61,307 bases of DNA from Prevotellaceae bacterium (GTDB lineage Bacteria; Bacteroidota; Bacteroidia; Bacteroidales; Bacteroidaceae): assembly GCA_030531085.1 (NCBI GenBank), contig JAUNOM010000011.1, forward strand, positions 1 through 61,307, given 5' to 3'. Shown in pieces: positions 1 through 7,133 of the stretch (the stretch's first letter is position 1; each line of letters begins with the position of its first letter). A program made the position numbers and the translations under genes. The notes beneath the pieces were generated by a model. The model was not told where the DNA came from. It saw only the letters and a program-made list of their open reading frames with translations, and did not search any database.

Positions 1-34
1 AAGGAGAACGTGCCGTGCGGAGGAGTAGCCTGTG

Positions 35-80
35 AGCCTATATATAATATATGTACGCGTACATATATTATATATAGGCT
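35..80. repeat. 46-bp perfect palindrome
   Basis: Every base pairs with its partner about the centre between positions 57 and 58. The core is an ACGCGT hexamer flanked by alternating AT-rich arms and closed by AGCC/GGCT ends. No T-run follows on either strand, so it is not a classical intrinsic terminator, although it would fold into a 23-bp hairpin in RNA or a cruciform in DNA. It lies just after GC-rich sequence that may be the end of an upstream gene, and 53 bp before the promoter of the aminotransferase gene. Confidence 0.95.
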
Positions 81-132
81 GTCCGTTCATGGGCCTTATT
101 TCGCCGGTTCCCGTAAATTCTACGCTATTTAT

Positions 133-163
133 TTTGTCAATCAAATAAAAATAAGTAATTTTG
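133..163 (+). promoter_or_regulatory. Bacteroidetes-type promoter of the aminotransferase cluster
   Basis: TTTG, a 19-bp spacer and TAATTTTG match the Bacteroidetes primary sigma consensus (TTTG, about 19-20 bp, TAnnTTTG). Initiation should fall near 170, leaving a leader of about 35 nt before the ATG at 207. It marks the aminotransferase gene as the first gene of its transcription unit. Confidence 0.75.
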
Positions 164-206
164 CAAATCACAAAAAACAACCAGCAATAACAAATATAAA
201 ATAAAG

Positions 207-1247
207 ATGATTTATCTTGACAGAAACGAGTTTAACTTTAAGCCTTCGCAGAAGGTGATTGACGCGATAAAGGGTTTCGACCCCGAGACCCTGTGCTTCT
301 ACACGCGCATCTATGACGAGGGCAAGAAGAGTGTGGTATCAGTGCGTCTGAGCGAGATTTACGGCATTCCGGAACAGCAGGTACTCATAGGCTATGGCGG
401 TGAGGACATACTGAAGAACGCCGTGCACTACTACCTGTCCACGGGCGGCAACAACGTCATCATGATTCCAGAATTCTCATGGTGGTACTACAACCGCATA
501 GCTGGCGAGTGTGGCGGCGCATTCGAGATGTATCCGCTTCACGAGACGGGCGACACCTTCGCATACGACATCGACGAGGTCATAGAGTACACCAACCGCA
601 TACATCCGCGTATGCTGCTGCTCGCATCGCCCAACAATCCTACGGGCAACAGCCTCACACCCGAGGAGATAGGCCGCATCATGGAGAACATACCCGATGA
701 CACGATGGTGCTCATCGACGAGGCGTACGCCTCATTCATCACCAATGACACTTCATACGTGGCTCCGCTGGTAGCAAAGTACTCCAACCTCATCATCTCA
801 CGCACGCTGTCCAAGTTCTACGGCCTGCCGGGACTAAGAATGGGCTTCGGCTTCATAGGCAAGGGACACGAGGGCTTCCTCAACTACGCCAACAAATATC
901 TTGGATACAACCGTTTCAGCGAGACGGTGGCTCTCGCCGCTCTGGAGAGTGACGATCACTACCGCAAGGTGGCCGAGGACATGGAATGGGACCGTCAGCT
1001 GTTCAAGAAGGAGCTGGGCTCTCTGCCGGGCTTCAAGGTTTACAAGAGCGTGGCGAACTTCATTCTAATAAAGTATCCTGTAGCCATAAAGGAGGCGCTG
1101 CAGAAGTCTCTCGCGGAGCAGGAGTACAAAATAAAGTTCATGGGTGACAAGGGTCTGGAGGACTGCCTGCGCATCACCCTCGGACAGCCAAAGCAGATAG
1201 AGACGGTAGTGAACGCCATAAAGGAGGCGTATAAAAAGAACGCGTAA
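207..1247 (+). CDS. PLP-dependent class I/II aminotransferase (HisC/PntC-type)
   Basis: 346 aa, fold-type I PLP enzyme. The SPNNPTG motif (residues 141-147), the cofactor-contacting D171/Y174 pair in LIDEAY, the Schiff-base lysine in SRTLSKFYG (about K203) and the downstream GLRMGFG arginine motif are all present, so it should be catalytically competent. The sequence style is that of histidinol-phosphate aminotransferases, but no his gene is nearby. Its stop overlaps by one base (TAATG) the start of a nucleotidyltransferase gene. The same two activities are fused in PntC of phosphonate pathways, so an aminoethylphosphonate-forming transaminase is my preferred guess. A CobD-like phosphoserine or phosphothreonine decarboxylase is an alternative, because that activity also evolved on this scaffold. 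Class is certain; substrate is inferred. Confidence 0.85.
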   Translation: MIYLDRNEFNFKPSQKVIDAIKGFDPETLCFYTRIYDEGKKSVVSVRLSEIYGIPEQQVLIGYGGEDILKNAVHYYLSTGGNNVIMIPEFSWWYYNRIAGECGGAFEMYPLHETGDTFAYDIDEVIEYTNRIHPRMLLLASPNNPTGNSLTPEEIGRIMENIPDDTMVLIDEAYASFITNDTSYVAPLVAKYSNLIISRTLSKFYGLPGLRMGFGFIGKGHEGFLNYANKYLGYNRFSETVALAALESDDHYRKVAEDMEWDRQLFKKELGSLPGFKVYKSVANFILIKYPVAIKEALQKSLAEQEYKIKFMGDKGLEDCLRITLGQPKQIETVVNAIKEAYKKNA

Positions 1248-1981
1248 TGAAGGCCGTCATCCTTGCGGCCGGTATGGCGTCACGCCTGCGGCCGCTTACT
1301 CTGAAAACTCCTAAGTGTCTGCTGAACATAGGCAGCCGTCCTTTGCTGCAACGCTCCATGGACGCAATCATATCTGCCGGCATCAGCGATTTTGTCATTG
1401 TAACGGGTTACCTGCACGGCATGATTGAGCAGTTTGTGCAGGACACTTACGGCGACAGCGTCACCGTACAGTTCATTCACAATGATGTTTACGACTCCAC
1501 GAACAATATATATTCCCTGTGGCTGGCCCGTCAGGCCGTGGACGGTGAGCCTTTCATGCTGCTGGACAGCGATCTGCTCTATGATCCGCAGATTGTGGCG
1601 CAGGTTGTGGGGGATGCGGCGGACAATGTGCTGACCCTTATAAAGCATCCCCTCGGCGAGGAGGAGATGAAGGTGGTGACGGAGGACAACGGCTCCATAC
1701 TCGAGATTAGCAAGACGTGCTCTCCGGCGGCGGCCGCGGGCGAGAGTCTCGGCATAGAGCGCTTTGGAGCGGCATACTCCACGGCGCTGTTCAGGGAGCT
1801 GGAGGTTATGATGAACAGCGAGCATCTCGAGAATAAATTCTATGAGCTGGCCTTTGAGCGCCTCATACCGCAGGGACATACATTCAAGGTCCTTGACGTC
1901 ACCACACTGTTCTCTTGCGAGCTGGACACCGTGGAGGATTTCCAGAATGCAAAAGACAACATTCCATCATATTTGTTTTAA
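1247..1981 (+). CDS. Sugar/alcohol-phosphate nucleotidyltransferase (LicC/PntC-like)
   Basis: 244 aa, a full-length NTP-transferase domain. It opens with the nucleotide-binding loop LAAGMASRLRPLT (residues 6-18) and TPKCLL, then LLDSDLLYDP (about residues 105-114), which carries the metal-binding aspartates. The family activates phosphocholine, inositol phosphate, aminoethylphosphonate or sugar phosphates with CTP or another NTP. It overlaps the aminotransferase stop by one base and is followed after 5 bp by a CDP-alcohol phosphotransferase. This argues that it makes a CDP- or CMP-activated headgroup consumed by the next enzyme. The nucleotide and the alcohol cannot be read from the sequence. 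Confidence 0.82.
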   Translation: MKAVILAAGMASRLRPLTLKTPKCLLNIGSRPLLQRSMDAIISAGISDFVIVTGYLHGMIEQFVQDTYGDSVTVQFIHNDVYDSTNNIYSLWLARQAVDGEPFMLLDSDLLYDPQIVAQVVGDAADNVLTLIKHPLGEEEMKVVTEDNGSILEISKTCSPAAAAGESLGIERFGAAYSTALFRELEVMMNSEHLENKFYELAFERLIPQGHTFKVLDVTTLFSCELDTVEDFQNAKDNIPSYLF

Positions 1982-1986
1982 AAAAA

Positions 1987-2973
1987 ATGAACGAGAAAAT
2001 AAAGAAGACCCTGAAGTCCTCAGAGACGGAAGACTGGCTTGACTATCGCGTGGTCCGTCCGCTGAGCTACTTCTGGGCATTGTTGTTCGCGCGCCTCGGC
2101 GTGCATCCGAACACCGTCACCATCCTTTCAATGTTCATAGGTGCCGGCAGTTGTTTTTTCTATGCGCACGGAAGCTATTATTATGAGGGTATGCATGGCC
2201 TCATGCTGAATATTATCGCCGTACTGCTGCTTTTATGGGCGGATATCTACGACTGCACGGACGGACAGCTGGCGCGCATGACTGGCAAGAAGAGCCAGAT
2301 GGGGCGCATACTGGACGGAGCGGCGGGCTTTGCGTGGTTTGTGCCTATTTATGTGGCGCTGGTGTGGCGCTTCTACAAGTATCACGACATCGAGTTCGGC
2401 TGGCTTGGCATAGAGAACACGGAGCAGAATGCCGTCATCGCGGCAGTCGTGGTCTTTGTGCTGGCTCTCGTCTCCGGATTTGTGGGCATGGGCGGACAGC
2501 AGCGCCTTGCGGACTACTATATACAGATACACCTTTTCTTCCTGAAAGGCAGAAAAGGCAGCGAGCTTGACAATTCCGTGAAGCAGAAGCAGATATACGA
2601 CGAGACACCATGGAAGGGAAACCTGGTGTGGAAGACATTCCTGCACTCATACGTGGGCTACACGCGCAAGCAGGAGGCGAAGACACCGCAGTTCCAGAAC
2701 CTTATGGCGAAGATAAGGCAGAAGTACGGCAGCGCGGACAATATGCCGGAAGAGATACGCAGCGAGTTCCACCGGCACTCGAAGGCCATCATGGGATGGA
2801 ACGCCATGCTCACCTTCAACTTCCGCGCAGGTATGTTCTTCATCTTCTGTCTCGCGGACATCCCTGCCATGAACTTTGTCTTTGAGATAGTGGCCATGTC
2901 CCTGCTCACCGTATATATTAACCACAGGCACGAGAGATTCTGCAAAAGGATAGCGGACAGCATCATCATATAA
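1987..2973 (+). CDS. CDP-alcohol phosphatidyltransferase family protein, active-site variant
   Basis: 328 aa integral membrane protein. I start it at the ATG 5 bp after the preceding stop; a longer reading frame exists but its extra 24 residues overlap the upstream gene and look non-coding. The family motif D-x2-DG-x2-AR-x8-G-x3-D-x3-D is present as DCTDGQLAR, then GRILD, but the fourth aspartate, expected four residues after the third, is glycine (DGAAG). That aspartate is the presumed general base of the family. Several hydrophobic segments flank the motif, and the protein is longer than PgsA/PssA-type enzymes (about 180-240 aa) owing to a hydrophilic insert around residues 200-275. Likely role: transfer of the activated headgroup to a lipid or glycan alcohol. 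Confidence 0.8.
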   Translation: MNEKIKKTLKSSETEDWLDYRVVRPLSYFWALLFARLGVHPNTVTILSMFIGAGSCFFYAHGSYYYEGMHGLMLNIIAVLLLLWADIYDCTDGQLARMTGKKSQMGRILDGAAGFAWFVPIYVALVWRFYKYHDIEFGWLGIENTEQNAVIAAVVVFVLALVSGFVGMGGQQRLADYYIQIHLFFLKGRKGSELDNSVKQKQIYDETPWKGNLVWKTFLHSYVGYTRKQEAKTPQFQNLMAKIRQKYGSADNMPEEIRSEFHRHSKAIMGWNAMLTFNFRAGMFFIFCLADIPAMNFVFEIVAMSLLTVYINHRHERFCKRIADSIII

Positions 2974-2981
2974 AGCACCCA

Positions 2982-4016
2982 ATGACCAAGAAACGTCTGA
3001 ACAACATATTCTTCTTCCTTGGCATAGCCGCCGTGGTAGTGATGCTCCTGACATTTGACGTGAGTTTCGCTGAATTATGGCAGCATCTGTGCCGCACGGG
3101 CTACTGGCTCATCCCCATCATCGGAATATGGCTTGTGATATACGGCATCAATGCGCTTGCATGGCAGTGCACCATCAGGGGATGCACCAACGACGAGGAG
3201 CACGTGGGCTTCTGGCGCATCATGCGCCTCACCGTCACGGGCTACGCCCTTAACTACGCCACTCCTGTGGGCGGTCTGGGCGGCGAGCCGTACCGCATTA
3301 TGGAGCTGTCGAAGGACATCAGCAAGCAGCACGCGGCGTCCTCGGTGATACTCTATGCCATGATGCACGTCTTTGCCCACTTCCTGTTCTGGTTCTCGTC
3401 GGTGTTTCTGTACCTGATCCTTGCCGCCATGGGCGATGTGCCGCTGACTACGGTTGTGGGGAGCACGCTGGCAGTGATAACGCTGTTCTGCATTGCCGCC
3501 ATATACCTCTTCTCCAAGGGTTACCGCAACGGACTCGTGGTGAAGGTGATAAGGCTGATAGGCAAGATACCGGGCCTGAAGGGATGGAGCGGCCGCTTTC
3601 AGGAGCGCCATGCCGAGGCGCTGCGTAACATAGACGCGCAGATTGCCGCTCTGCACCAGCAGGACAAGAGAAATTTCTATTACAGTCTTTCCCTGGAGTA
3701 TCTCTCACGCATTGTGCAGAGTCTGGAGATAATGTTTATGCTGCTGTTGTTCGGCATAGACTGCGGCGGTGGCTTCAACGGTATGCTGCTCACATTCCTG
3801 CACTCCATCCTCATCCTTGCCTTCACCACCCTGTTCGCAAATCTGATAGGTTTCCTGCCTATGCAGATAGGCGTGCAGGAGGGAGGCTTCGTATTATCCA
3901 TAGCCGCCCTCGGCCTGTCCGCCGCCCTCGGCATCTTCGTCAGCATAATATGCCGCGTCCGCGAGATAATATGGATACTGATAGGCATCCTGTTGATGAA
4001 GATTGACAGGGAGTAG
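2982..4016 (+). CDS. Lysylphosphatidylglycerol synthase TM-domain / flippase-like membrane protein
   Basis: 344 aa, with multiple hydrophobic segments throughout and the family hallmark GGLGGEPYR (about residues 103-111). It has only the membrane part found in MprF and YbhN-type proteins, with no aminoacyl-transferase domain, so it is probably a lipid flippase or translocase rather than an LPG synthase. It follows the CDP-alcohol enzyme by 8 bp and would fit as the exporter of the lipid made by the cluster. Its last 13 codons (ILIGILLMKIDRE) recur 1.5 kb downstream, which shows that the two genes after it were inserted at its 3' end. It ends with tandem TAG codons. Confidence 0.8.
   Translation: MTKKRLNNIFFFLGIAAVVVMLLTFDVSFAELWQHLCRTGYWLIPIIGIWLVIYGINALAWQCTIRGCTNDEEHVGFWRIMRLTVTGYALNYATPVGGLGGEPYRIMELSKDISKQHAASSVILYAMMHVFAHFLFWFSSVFLYLILAAMGDVPLTTVVGSTLAVITLFCIAAIYLFSKGYRNGLVVKVIRLIGKIPGLKGWSGRFQERHAEALRNIDAQIAALHQQDKRNFYYSLSLEYLSRIVQSLEIMFMLLLFGIDCGGGFNGMLLTFLHSILILAFTTLFANLIGFLPMQIGVQEGGFVLSIAALGLSAALGIFVSIICRVREIIWILIGILLMKIDRE
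3975..4015 (+). repeat. Direct repeat, left copy (3' end of flippase gene)
   Basis: 41 bp covering the final codons of the flippase gene, matching 5504-5544 at 39 of 41 positions. Both differences are CTG/TTG leucine changes, so both copies encode ILIGILLMKIDRE followed by a stop (TAG here, TAA in the right copy). Confidence 0.95.
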
Positions 4017-4040
4017 TAGCATTTGAAACAAGCTATCATT

Positions 4041-4664
4041 ATGAATTTGGACATTTTGACGGACATACGAAGAGAACGCTTTGGAGAAATCGCAAATAAG
4101 CTGATGAATAACTATTGCATACTCAAGAAAGATTCGAGAGACAATAGCGATGTCATCTATCGGTTTGCCGAAATAGAGTTCTATCTATATAGTTTGGATA
4201 CTCCTGACGAGGATATTGACACATACTATCGTGACTGCAACTGTGTGGAATGGTTCTTCCATGGCAGCGGTGTGGACATTGCTTTTAAAACAGTGCGCGA
4301 TGGTGATGAATTGACACAGTTTGGCGGAATACTTGTACGCGGCGTAGAGATTTACAAGGAGAACGCATCTGGAGAATGGGAGCTTACTGGAGTCGCAGGC
4401 GGTCCACGAGTGTCCATGTACGAGATATTCAACCACAGTATCGGGATGCCGGATGTTGTTCCTATTCATGATACATTGAAGAATGATAGAAAAATCAATA
4501 AAACCACACGCATAGGCATTAAGGATAAGGCCTTGCAGCGTTTCGTTTTTGCAGATATTGACTGGAATGTGCCTACCGAAAGAATTATAGAACGGAAAGA
4601 GAAAGACGGCCTATATCATGTGAGGTTGAAAAAGACACCAAGAAAATATAATCCCACAGTATGA
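4041..4664 (+). CDS. Hypothetical protein, faint 3-methyladenine DNA glycosylase resemblance
   Basis: 207 aa from the ATG at 4041; a TTG six codons upstream is possible but less likely. No signal peptide or membrane segment. Three short stretches recall the Mpg/AAG alkyladenine glycosylase order: FAEIEFYLYS (like the ExEAY catalytic-Glu segment), FGGILVRGVEI (like the VLIRAxEP strand) and GGPRVSMYEIF (like the nGPGxL motif). The match is by eye and weak, so I leave the function open. The gene is much more AT-rich than the four genes before it and overlaps the next gene's original start (ATGA). It sits inside a segment bounded by the duplicated flippase tail, so it is probably acquired cargo. 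Confidence 0.6.
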   Translation: MNLDILTDIRRERFGEIANKLMNNYCILKKDSRDNSDVIYRFAEIEFYLYSLDTPDEDIDTYYRDCNCVEWFFHGSGVDIAFKTVRDGDELTQFGGILVRGVEIYKENASGEWELTGVAGGPRVSMYEIFNHSIGMPDVVPIHDTLKNDRKINKTTRIGIKDKALQRFVFADIDWNVPTERIIERKEKDGLYHVRLKKTPRKYNPTV

Positions 4665-4711
4665 TTACGGACTTTCAATGTAATACGGTCTATTTCTCGT
4701 CATTGTTATAA
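4661..4711 (+). pseudogene. Severed N-terminal codons of the agmatine-deiminase-like gene
   Basis: The ATG overlaps the stop of the preceding gene (ATGA) and encodes MITDFQCNTVYFSSLL, then TAA. The same frame continues without a gap into the deiminase-like protein (EKSPNTYAYLITALER). A single stop at codon 17 therefore separates the natural start from the rest of the gene. Confidence 0.75.
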
Positions 4712-4738
4712 GAGAAATCACCTAATACGTATGCCTAT

Positions 4739-5500
4739 TTGATTACTGCGCTTGAAAGGCATGGCGTGAATTATCGTTTCCTCAACAATACAAATGATAT
4801 TTGGTGCAGGGACTATATGCCTGTACAAGTTGCAAAGGATGTTTTCTGCGGCTATACTTATGATTCCGACTATCTGCACGACACAGAAGAGCTGCTTGCA
4901 ACACGGACGGACGGCAATCAAGTTTGCAGTGAACATGGTTTCAAAGTGAAAGTCCCCGAAAAACCTTTGGTTATTGATGGCGGAAATGTTATCCGTTGTG
5001 GTGAAGACAAAATCATCATGATAGAAAAGATTTTCAGTGAGAATAATTACGAAAAAGGGAAACTGACAAAAATCATTGAAGAGCATTTTATGGCGGAATT
5101 GATTGTCTTGCCATGGGATACATATGAACTTTTTGGCCATGCGGATGGGTTAGTGAGGTATATTGGCAATGACAGCGTTCTGATAACCAACTATGACAAG
5201 TACGATAAGTATTTCACGCGCGAAGTTGTCGATATTCTGAAACGTCACTTCAAGAATGTGGAGAAATTGGAGTATCATGTAAAACGTCAGCACAAACATA
5301 ATTGGGCTTACATCAATTGGCTGCAAACCGACAAGGCTTTATTCATTCCCGCTTTTGGTTATGACGAAGATGAGCAGGCCTTTGAACAGATAACATCGCT
5401 TATGCCAATGTATCGAGGCCATGCGGAGATGATTGACGCACGAGATTTAATCCGCCACGAGGGCTGTCTGAACTGTGCAAGTTGGACAATACAGTCCTAA
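4739..5500 (+). CDS. Agmatine deiminase / peptidyl-arginine deiminase (PAD_porph) family protein, 5'-disrupted
   Basis: 253 codons from a TTG, or 279 if the in-frame TAA upstream is ignored. Guanidine-modifying family motifs are preserved: NDIWCRDYMPVQ (residues 19-30), IDGGNV (79-84), GHADGLVRYI (133-142, containing the catalytic His) and the C-terminal GCLNCASW with the presumed nucleophile Cys about 246. The core catalytic set is therefore intact and only the first strand is compromised. It either restarts at this TTG at low efficiency, tolerates the stop, or is a young pseudogene; a sequencing error at the stop is also possible. If active it would hydrolyse agmatine or an arginine-like guanidino group, releasing ammonia. 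It shares the AT-rich inserted segment with the gene before it. Confidence 0.7.
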   Translation: MITALERHGVNYRFLNNTNDIWCRDYMPVQVAKDVFCGYTYDSDYLHDTEELLATRTDGNQVCSEHGFKVKVPEKPLVIDGGNVIRCGEDKIIMIEKIFSENNYEKGKLTKIIEEHFMAELIVLPWDTYELFGHADGLVRYIGNDSVLITNYDKYDKYFTREVVDILKRHFKNVEKLEYHVKRQHKHNWAYINWLQTDKALFIPAFGYDEDEQAFEQITSLMPMYRGHAEMIDARDLIRHEGCLNCASWTIQS

Positions 5501-5503
5501 AGC

Positions 5504-5544
5504 ATATTGATAGGCATCCTGCTGATGAAGATTGACAGGGAGTA
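5504..5544 (+). repeat. Direct repeat, right copy (remnant flippase tail)
   Basis: Second copy of the flippase C-terminal codons (39 of 41 bp identical, both differences synonymous), starting 3 bp after the deiminase-like stop and running straight into the terminator that presumably once served the flippase gene. Confidence 0.95.
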
Positions 5545-5555
5545 AAACGGAGAGA

Positions 5556-5600
5556 ATATAAAAAAGGTCCAGAAACGTTGACGTCTCTGGACCTTTTTTA
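5556..5600. terminator. Bidirectional intrinsic terminator between flippase/cargo unit and dnaB
   Basis: Inverted repeat GGTCCAGA/TCTGGACC with an A-run before and a T-run after, giving a symmetrical hairpin that can terminate on both strands. It separates convergent transcription units and abuts the dnaB stop. Confidence 0.9.
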
Positions 5601-7133
5601 TTAATACGGAACATCATTATATACCGCTCCACCGCCTAATGGGTCGCCATTGTCCACGGGTAAGTTCAAGTTGGAGCTTCGGAAAGAGTTCTCCTCCGTT
5701 GTGTCGCCCTGTGGAACACCATCGTACGAGTCGTACTCATCGGGATTGGCAAAGCGTGTGTATTCTCCCTTGAACGACAATATCACATCCTTTGTCGCAC
5801 CTTTACGGTGTTTGGCTATGCAGATATAGGCCATGCCCTTGAGATTATTGCCATTTGAATCCTCAAATATCTTATAATACTCCGGACGGTGCACGAACAG
5901 CACCATATCCGCATCCTGCTCTATGGCACCGGACTCACGAAGGTCTGACAGCTGCGGACGTTTACCATCCTCGCCGGGGCGCTGCTCCACCGCACGCGAC
6001 AGCTGTGACAGTGCAATGATAGGGATGTCAAGCTCCTTTGCAAGGCCTTTAAGCGAGCGTGATATGGTTGACACCTCCTCCTGACGGCTGTTGAACTTCA
6101 TTCCATTGGCATTCATCAGCTGAAGGTAGTCTATCATTATGACCTTGACACCCTTCTCGCGCACCAGACGCCGTGCCTTGGTGCGCAGTTCAAAGACAGA
6201 CAGACCGGGAGTGTCGTCCACATACAGCGGAGCGCCCATCAGCCGTCCGATGTTATTGTCGAAACGCTTCCATTCATCCTGTGTGAGCTGGCCGTTCATG
6301 ATCTTGCTGCCTGGAACGGAGCAGACATTCGAGATAAGGCGGTTGACAAGCTGCACGTTGTTCATCTCAAGGGAGAAGAAGGCAACGGGATCATGGTTGT
6401 CTATGGCGATATTCTTTGCCAGTGACAGTGCGAAAGACGTCTTGCCCATCGCCGGACGGCCCGCTATGATGATGAGGTCGGAGGCCTGCCATCCCGAGGT
6501 TATCTTGTCGAACTCCGTGTATCCCGTAGGCACGCCTGTTATACCGCCAGTATTGTTCGCGGCTTTCAGAATAAGCTCACGCGCCTGGGTTACGACAGGG
6601 TCAATCTGTGTATAGTCCTGCCGCATATTTTTTTGGGATATCTCAAACAGGGAACCTTCCGCCTCCTGCATCAGCTCGTCGATGTCCTGCGCCTCGTCGA
6701 AGGCCTTTGTCTCCACATTTGAGGCGTATGAGATGAGCTGCCGCGCAATATGCTTCTGTGCAAGAATATGCGCGTGGTACTCAACATTGGCGGAAGAAGC
6801 GACAAGCTGCGTGAGGTCGACAATATATGTGGGCGCTCCGACTTCCTCAAACGTCCCCTCGTGCTTGAGTTCCTCGCATACAGTCATCATGTCCACAGGC
6901 CGTTCCTTCATGTTAAGGGTCTGTATGGCCCGGAATATCTTCTGGTGACGTGGCTCATAGAATGTTTCGGGATGCAACAGTTCGGAAACAATAGAGAAGG
7001 CATCGGTGTCAATCATCAGTGCGCCAAGCACAGCCTTCTCCATGTCCACTGCCTGTGGGGGCATGTGTCCAAGAGAGATGTCTATCTCCTTTTTCGCCGT
7101 GCGGCGGCGTGTAGTGTTATTTGCTGCTGGCAT
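5601..7133 (-). CDS. dnaB: Replicative DNA helicase DnaB
   Basis: 510 aa, normal length for Bacteroidetes DnaB. N-terminal helicase-loader/primase-interaction domain (about residues 25-130), then the RecA-like ATPase with Walker A GRPAMGKT (225-232), FFSLEM, a Walker B region ending VIMIDYLQLM and the RPxxSDLRESGAIEQDAD segment. It forms the hexameric replicative helicase that unwinds DNA ahead of the fork and recruits primase. It is the last gene of a long minus-strand run, starting 11 bp after the ispE stop, and ends at a shared bidirectional terminator. No intein is present in the Walker A or C-terminal insertion sites. Confidence 0.97.
   Translation of the reverse strand: MPAANNTTRRRTAKKEIDISLGHMPPQAVDMEKAVLGALMIDTDAFSIVSELLHPETFYEPRHQKIFRAIQTLNMKERPVDMMTVCEELKHEGTFEEVGAPTYIVDLTQLVASSANVEYHAHILAQKHIARQLISYASNVETKAFDEAQDIDELMQEAEGSLFEISQKNMRQDYTQIDPVVTQARELILKAANNTGGITGVPTGYTEFDKITSGWQASDLIIIAGRPAMGKTSFALSLAKNIAIDNHDPVAFFSLEMNNVQLVNRLISNVCSVPGSKIMNGQLTQDEWKRFDNNIGRLMGAPLYVDDTPGLSVFELRTKARRLVREKGVKVIMIDYLQLMNANGMKFNSRQEEVSTISRSLKGLAKELDIPIIALSQLSRAVEQRPGEDGKRPQLSDLRESGAIEQDADMVLFVHRPEYYKIFEDSNGNNLKGMAYICIAKHRKGATKDVILSFKGEYTRFANPDEYDSYDGVPQGDTTEENSFRSSNLNLPVDNGDPLGGGAVYNDVPY

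Follow-up and report, generated by a model that had tools for sequence, protein, structure and literature searches.

A four-gene operon of Prevotellaceae as a candidate Kennedy-type headgroup kit for an amino-alcohol lipid

What might a cell make with an aminotransferase-like enzyme, a nucleotidyltransferase, a CDP-alcohol phosphotransferase and a flippase-like membrane protein that are encoded back to back? These four genes lie near the left end of contig JAUNOM010000011.1 of a Prevotellaceae bacterium (GCA_030531085.1). The window analyzed here is that entire contig (C9, 61,307 bases), from a genome of 2.37 Mb in 61 contigs that is 81% complete; since the contig starts at base 1, the assembly holds no readable DNA to the left of it. 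A first-pass annotation made from the letters had read the genes as one pathway for an amino-headgroup or phosphonate lipid. The four open reading frames (ORFs), with Pfam scores that are all above cut-off, are as follows.

207..1247, + strand: AT, 346 amino acids (aa), a class I/II pyridoxal phosphate (PLP) enzyme, HisC/CobD-like, proposed O-phospho-L-serine decarboxylase or other enzyme forming an amino-alcohol phosphate (PF00155, Aminotran_1_2, 134.6 bits)
1247..1981, + strand: NTP, 244 aa, a LicC/PntC-like cytidylyltransferase, proposed CTP:phosphoethanolamine (amino-alcohol phosphate) cytidylyltransferase (PF00483/PF12804; NTP_transferase, 56.6 bits)
1987..2973, + strand: CDP-PT, 328 aa, a CDP-alcohol phosphotransferase with a non-canonical last motif position, proposed CDP-amino-alcohol:lipid phosphotransferase (PF01066, CDP-OH_P_transf, 39.4 bits)
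2982..4016, + strand: FLIP, 344 aa, an LPG_synthase_TM/HpnL-like integral membrane protein, proposed lipid flippase or translocase (PF03706, LPG_synthase_TM, 90.0 bits)

The ORF list and the Pfam matches bear out the operon and its coordinates, with the third gene taken from the ATG at 1987, after the NTP stop codon (a longer, TTG-started ORF from 1915 is also listed); the intergenic spacings are –1 (AT/NTP), 5 (NTP/CDP-PT) and 8 bases (CDP-PT/FLIP). The operon is more than a chance arrangement: a set of these four genes turns up together, in shuffled orders, at 18 other loci. This conserved content, together with the exchange of transferases described below, upholds on comparative grounds the earlier proposal of a single pathway that makes, CDP-activates, attaches and perhaps flips an amino headgroup. 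The kind of pathway named there is partly supported: a CDP-alcohol headgroup pathway for an amino-headgroup lipid, and not for a phosphonate.

On balance, and without great confidence, we favor reading the operon as a complete Kennedy-type headgroup kit for an ethanolamine-phosphoryl (or similar) lipid, perhaps a dihydroceramide. AT would convert a central metabolite to an amino-alcohol phosphate, most likely phosphoethanolamine by decarboxylation of O-phospho-L-serine; NTP would combine CTP and phosphoethanolamine to CDP-ethanolamine; CDP-PT would pass the phospho-amino-alcohol to a lipid hydroxyl, likelier that of dihydroceramide than of diacylglycerol (DAG); and FLIP would translocate the resulting lipid across the inner membrane. 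The fallback of the first-pass annotation, an amino alcohol with phosphoserine as its source, is now the best reading. The parts of the scheme differ in strength: transfer of a CDP-activated amino-alcohol onto a lipid is probable, the chances that the amino-alcohol is ethanolamine seem evenly poised, and ceramide as the acceptor, rather than DAG or another lipid, is a tentative choice. In the eukaryotic Kennedy pathway, CTP:phosphoethanolamine cytidylyltransferase and EPT/CEPT likewise bring a CDP-alcohol to a lipid hydroxyl; the operon differs from it in having no ethanolamine kinase, in a headgroup proposed to come from phosphoserine and in the non-canonical motif of its CDP-PT.

AT is patchily spread: at E ≤ 1e–40 it was found in 16 of the 121 genomes of the family and 20 of the 393 of the order (own genome in both counts), with some AT proteins of other families 80–81% identical, whereas of six further listed genomes from the same genus, five are without it. 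Gene neighborhoods were taken from a scan of named genomes, in which we kept the best 80 AT loci (at least 80 exist), mapped the first 50 (L180–L229) and set aside the last 30 (26–31% identity). Some of these loci are the same contigs as those of our G-numbered genomes (e.g., L185 and G185), and the counts are not additive. Forty of the loci (L180–L219) have AT at 56–86% identity and bear titles of Prevotellaceae, Bacteroidales and their kin, with one Fibrobacter (L182). Window-type CDP-PT was present in 21 of these 40, FLIP accompanied it in 20, and all four genes were found in 18; among the incomplete sets, L187 lacks FLIP and L181 and L202 show no NTP, the contig of L202 ending soon after AT. 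The 18 complete loci take seven arrangements: AT-NTP-CDP-PT-FLIP as in the window (L219), CDP-PT-FLIP-AT-NTP (8 loci), AT-CDP-PT-FLIP-NTP (4 loci, and 2 more with NTP reversed), NTP-AT-CDP-PT-FLIP (1 locus), FLIP-CDP-PT divergent from AT-NTP (L183, Segatella baroniae B14), and, in L212, AT-NTP preceded by a CDP-PT in reverse orientation and followed further along by a second CDP-PT and FLIP. Around L219, L183 and L189, ten flanking proteins (among them RelA/SpoT, mannose isomerase, ABC transporters, GH43 and trigger factor) show no relationship with one another or with the pathway.

Where window-type CDP-PT is missing, other transferases often stand in its place. The 19 such loci of L180–L219 had a LicD-like gene (10 loci), a PF04464-like gene (5 loci, one of them with both) or neither (5 loci); four of these matches are merely 29–33% identical, and LicD was confirmed on one representative and PF04464 on two. 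The more distant loci L220–L229 (Desulfobacterales, Ignavibacteria, Krumholzibacteriia, Aminicenantes and other Bacteroidetes) had a second type of CDP-PT in 7 of 10, PF04464 in 1 and neither in 2. LicD and PF04464 are families of CDP-alcohol users, and a LicD-type enzyme is reported to accept CDP-ethanolamine in vitro (PMC11982090). From these pairings it follows that AT-NTP probably supplies a CDP-activated amino-alcohol and that the next gene decides its destination. Finding the same genes in the same order with a capsule pathway had been named as an outcome that would undo the lipid proposal; AT-NTP does also sit, together with LicD or PF04464, in loci resembling those for lipopolysaccharide (LPS) or capsule, yet among the mapped loci of this kind it has no window-type CDP-PT next to it. 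The exception is L212, with a LicD/PF04464-type partner as well as CDP-PT; in genome G166, AT is near LicD and CDP-PT is on another contig. LicC-LicD is the phosphocholine pathway, and the module resembles it in its LicC-like NTP and in the LicD of its sister loci; the operon differs in a headgroup that AT would build de novo and that would not derive from choline, in its CDP-alcohol transferase and in a lipid as the likely acceptor. In one genome, NTP is fused to a family 2 glycosyltransferase domain (L103, 7242–8717), consistent with the module's glycan branch.

The CDP-PT of the window keeps company with AT at the genome level too. Members of its clade, placed by tree and at least 59% identical to the window protein, were found in 5 of the 121 family genomes (the own genome G000, G185, G217, G166 and G215), and all five are among the 16 with AT (P = 2.2e–5); excluding the query genome G000 leaves four of four among 15 of 120 (∼1.7e–4, calculated by hand). 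Some CDP-PT match exists in 83 of the 121; those at 57% or less were placed by tree in part, and the placed ones fell outside the clade. In G217, G166 and G215, CDP-PT is not on the AT contig, and in G217 both genes start within 150 bases of a contig end.

CDP-PT belongs to the CDP-alcohol phosphotransferase family (its PF01066 score is to be read against a Pfam cut-off of 22), with AF2299 as its best PDB match (E = 3e–4) and cholinephosphotransferase 1 a weak one (E = 0.07). The canonical motif is printed as DX2DGX2AR...GX3DX3D (PMC9246714). CDP-PT keeps the first three Asp and does not show the full motif, the last D being G in 27 of 27 rows of its clade, so that loss of the last acid is a trait of the clade and not decay of one copy. 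Members with Gly for Asp were seen at window positions 1987–2973 and in L097, L160–L162 and L181–L219. The residue after this G is F or Y in all 23 rows of our alignment A4. Inositol-type rows (21 printed) also have G at this position (S in the copy on contig C39 of the own genome), with D (14), N (6) or E (1) as the next residue, and second-type CDP-PT retains the last Asp in the 7 of 7 rows shown. In a tree of 79 proteins, the window-type CDP-PTs form one clade (27 rows, two identical; support 100/100) nested among 35 rows labeled inositol-type, with two polyketide-type rows (L163 and L165) just outside; the second type (15 rows, 100/99) is far from the window clade, on long branches flagged by the program. 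FLIP, which accompanies window-type CDP-PT in 20 of 21 loci, scores 69.8 bits against the HpnL model, under the cut-off of 195.65, and may act as a flippase.

For the nature of the headgroup we turn to NTP and AT. The NTP family profile matched LicC (1jyk, 105.6 bits) and PntC (Tde1415; 6pd1, 99.8 bits) in PDB, which makes it LicC/PntC-like. In PntC, E104 and E196 are near the primary amine of 2-aminoethylphosphonate (AEP) (PMC6697681). They align to D107 and E200 of NTP, both acidic, and these two are invariant in 44 of 44 complete module NTPs (window and L180–L229, incomplete or over-long proteins excluded). The inositol-cluster NTPs have T and M at these positions (11 compared, from 13 rows, after dropping L166 and L168, which hold only an extension), and where we place a Trp of the LicC choline box, all 44 module NTPs carry M or I. 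The pocket residues would thus fit a primary amine better than choline or inositol, without naming the amine.

AT and NTP are both below the cut-off of every NCBIfam model shown (25 of 63 listed for AT and 25 of 28 for NTP). AT reached 210.2 bits against the HisC (histidinol-phosphate transaminase) model TIGR01141 (cut-off 276.55) and 115.7 bits against the CobD (threonine-phosphate decarboxylase) model TIGR01140 (cut-off 290.55). Its PDB matches are mainly HisC enzymes, with threonine-phosphate-decarboxylase-like ones also present, and the best-scoring other match in its own genome is 27% identical (77.9 bits). Residues R6, K203, K310 and R322 are invariant in both family alignments; the five HisC chains shown each have arginine in place of K310, and the four that extend as far as R6 (two nearly identical) have A, A, S and T there, a pattern that does not separate decarboxylase from transaminase. 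A functional precedent for the proposed step is Cj1436 of Campylobacter jejuni, by which serine-phosphate is decarboxylated to ethanolamine phosphate (PMC12409886).

As to the lipid, the own genome has the gene for the sphingolipid backbone, a serine palmitoyltransferase over cut-off (G000:C19). The enzyme is over cut-off in 15 of the 17 AT genomes searched; the two that fall short, G106 and G055, are genomes with loci of the LicD or PF04464 type. A set of AT, second-type CDP-PT and NTP directly follows serine palmitoyltransferase, whose match is over cut-off each time, and two genes of one cluster that is weakly GNAT-like where tested (L047), in four genomes of family f21 (G134, G020, G349 and G489); the set lies shortly before an inositol-type cluster. 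Phosphatidylserine (PS) decarboxylase was found in 31 of the 35 AT genomes and in 27 of the 27 that are at least 90% complete. We considered whether the module replaces the PS decarboxylase route to phosphatidylethanolamine (PE); these 27 genomes give that idea no support. As ordinary PE seems to be made elsewhere, the better guess is ethanolamine phosphorylceramide (EPC) or some other amino-lipid. In Bacteroides, EPC (PE-DHC) ranks with the most abundant sphingolipids (PMC8791184, PMC10626005). Its synthesis step looked open at the time of that work, because a BLAST search with eukaryotic EPC synthase had no match in B. thetaiotaomicron (PMC8791184), and in the open-licence PMC literature consulted on EPC/CPE genes, Prevotella lipids and LicD with CDP-ethanolamine we found no gene for it. 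Seven genomes (G530, G531, G535, G012, G159, G349 and G489) carry, besides the usual PS decarboxylase match, another one in a longer frame (293–463 aa).

Several points weigh against an EPC-like kit. AT falls below both the HisC and CobD cut-offs and has transaminases among its kin. CDP-PT is without the canonical last aspartate, and its closest kin belong to clusters of a putative inositol-lipid or a polyketide-like kind, for which the acceptors are themselves only presumed. The link to serine palmitoyltransferase holds in one family only, with a different CDP-PT, and the gene of the own genome is on another contig. With PS decarboxylase usually present, the kit is not needed for ordinary PE, and with AT absent at threshold from 105 of the 121 family genomes the module cannot be the general EPC route. 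Last, by analogy with a second C. jejuni enzyme discussed below, the AT product could possibly be serinol or another amino-alcohol.

Were the acceptor DAG, giving a second, CDP-ethanolamine route to PE, or some other lipid instead of ceramide, the nesting of the CDP-PT clade among transferases from clusters for which DAG is the predicted substrate (PMC9246714) would be accounted for, as might the related CDP-PT in a ketosynthase/oxidoreductase cluster of two genomes. PS decarboxylase, moreover, had no match in the own genome, G166, G231 and G262, nor in four of the 34 genomes reached through the named-genome scan (partly the same genomes as the 35; the other 30 have it), namely those of L186 (Prevotellaceae), L225 and L228 (Krumholzibacteriia) and L226 (Aminicenantes), for which completeness is not given. 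However, the first four are just 81–87% complete, and in all 27 of the most complete AT genomes a second PE route would be redundant; we regard this alternative as unlikely, if a serious contender. As an observation in its own right, the genomes of L225, L226 and L228 have AT (L225 and L226 also CDP-PT and NTP) with PS decarboxylase unmatched, and the module might be the PE route of these Krumholzibacteriia and Aminicenantes if the genomes are complete enough.

A different headgroup would result from the same pathway if AT were a transaminase converting dihydroxyacetone phosphate (DHAP) to serinol-phosphate, the product of C. jejuni Cj1437, which shares one capsule locus with Cj1436 (PMC12409886). 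The final product would then be a serinol-phosphoryl lipid. AT is indeed nearer the HisC transaminase model than CobD by the scores above, and DHAP would require no extra enzyme, but no genetic or sequence feature favoring serinol was found here, and we know of no serinol lipid in Bacteroidota. We think this version rather improbable. Both Cj enzymes resemble the proposed AT by function, as PLP enzymes making ethanolamine- or serinol-phosphate for a surface polymer; their products are used as amides, whereas that of the operon would be used as a CDP ester (PMC12409886).

Returning from serinol to the ethanolamine kit, one may still ask if its product is a membrane phospholipid at all. CDP-PT could modify a lipid-linked glycan or polyene, or make a soluble compound, and elsewhere AT-NTP does have LicD, PF04464, glycosyltransferases and a Kdo-kinase-like protein as neighbors, in LPS/capsule-like loci, while near kin of CDP-PT occur in a polyketide-like cluster. 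Against this, FLIP and CDP-PT travel together, and no glycosyltransferase is among the ten flanking proteins of the three four-gene loci L219, L183 and L189; a non-phospholipid product seems to us quite improbable. The polyketide-like cluster (L163, 403–8731; L165, 1–7160) combines a CDP-PT relative (57% to the window) with a ketosynthase, an FAD-oxidoreductase, an SDR and a thioesterase, FLIP adjoining in L163; neither genome has an AT match at 1e–40.

The tree also raises an inositol-lipid alternative. The loci of the 35 inositol-type rows encode HAD (31), an inositol-type NTP domain (25) and MIPS (17), or none of the three (4: L042, L043, L048 and L050), and most of them represent the putative 'alternative inositol lipid cluster' of Bacteroides and Prevotella, unconfirmed according to its authors (Heaver et al. 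2022, PMC9246714). One such cluster lies on C39 of the own genome (L032, 6701–11303), in the order MIPS, CDP-PT, 496-aa NTP, HAD. The operon shares with that system an NTP transferase, a CDP-alcohol phosphotransferase of the same family, an LPG_synthase homologue and Kennedy-like logic; its CDP-PT, nested in that family, is 52% identical to the C39 copy beside MIPS, and FLIP homologues accompany many of the alternative clusters. Yet the operon has AT, which would have no role there, in place of MIPS and HAD, its NTP is of another subfamily with a different pocket (D107 and E200 against T and M), its CDP-PT forms a clade of its own, and the genome already has the MIPS cluster; a second cluster of that kind is very improbable. 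Thirty of the 35 inositol-type loci also encode a conserved protein of ∼280 aa with no Pfam match over cut-off, either as a separate gene or fused to NTP (e.g., L047 8995–9843, L033 7039–7860, L125 12559–13386 and the C-terminal half of the L032 NTP), of which the available text of PMC9246714 makes no mention. In L166–L170, CDP-PT loci have the 280-aa protein and HAD with neither an inositol-type NTP domain nor MIPS in the stretch examined.

The phosphonate half of the first-pass annotation rested on AT and NTP as the two halves of the fused enzyme PntC. For NTP this is right in kind, and the likeness to PntC/Tde1415 (PMC6697681) extends to pairing a LicC/PntC-kind cytidylyltransferase with a PLP enzyme as the source of its amine substrate. 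For AT it is not: 6pd1 is titled 'aminotransferase, class V' and was solved by molecular replacement with alanine-glyoxylate aminotransferase (PMC6697681), whereas AT is class I/II, matches PF00155 alone in Pfam, did not retrieve 6pd1 among its PDB matches at E 1e–10 or 1e–20, and is encoded by a separate gene. Among the 35 AT genomes, of which 27 reach at least 90% completeness, none has a match over cut-off to the PepM model (TIGR02320) and three have sub-cut-off matches (best 70.6 bits against 319.55); none over cut-off came from the own genome (81% complete), where PF13714 had one match below cut-off. The model works, being over cut-off in 7 of 149 order genomes, and 0 of 35 against 7 of 149 is no significant avoidance, showing merely that the module does not need PepM. 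That AT makes AEP and NTP makes CMP-AEP is therefore scarcely credible, for all the near-equal LicC and PntC scores of NTP, given an AT outside the AEP transaminase/PntC class, PepM over cut-off in none of the 35 genomes, and neither PepM nor Ppd among the ten flanking proteins of L219, L183 and L189. We reject a phosphonate origin on the PepM searches and the PLP enzyme class.

With the ethanolamine kit as the favored reading, the module offers concrete candidate genes for a CDP-activated route to EPC-like sphingolipids in some Bacteroidota, and Segatella baroniae B14 (L183) carries all four. The operon thereby bears on the question of how these bacteria attach such headgroups to their sphingolipids. 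One scheme also explains the same AT-NTP pair in LPS/capsule-like loci, and it offers an annotation for AT and NTP, two proteins that fall below all NCBIfam cut-offs shown. A bolder version, which we consider speculative and unlikely to hold in full, has AT-NTP as a bacterial headgroup-supply module plugged by gene exchange into CDP-alcohol transferases (for lipids) and LicD and PF04464 (for glycans), and, in rumen Prevotellaceae, serving the first bacterial CDP-ethanolamine (or CDP-serinol):ceramide route, with a transferase drawn from the CDP-inositol transferases and working without the last aspartate.

The limits of the operon can be placed from its flanks. Upstream of AT lies a promoter-like box:

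133..163, + strand: promoter-like box TTTG-N19-TAATTTTG, the single occurrence of the pattern in 1–5700

We take TTTG-N19-TAATTTTG to be the Bacteroidota promoter pattern, and the position of the box suggests that the operon begins at AT. A general scan for such signals gave 10 promoter-like sites against 7.4 expected and 10 terminator-like sites against 3.9, none of which was used. After the operon, at 4023–5500, come a 213-aa ORF without a Pfam match and a PAD_porph/agmatine-deiminase-like gene; as neither had a tblastn match in the relatives' loci (L032–L051, L096–L127 and L180–L229), the four-gene set is taken to end with FLIP. The G+C fraction drops after the operon, to 0.416 for 4001–5000 from 0.50–0.56 for 1–4000. 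Between the contig end and the promoter-like box, close to the former, an AT-rich palindrome of 46 bases centered on ACGCGT occupies positions 35–80.

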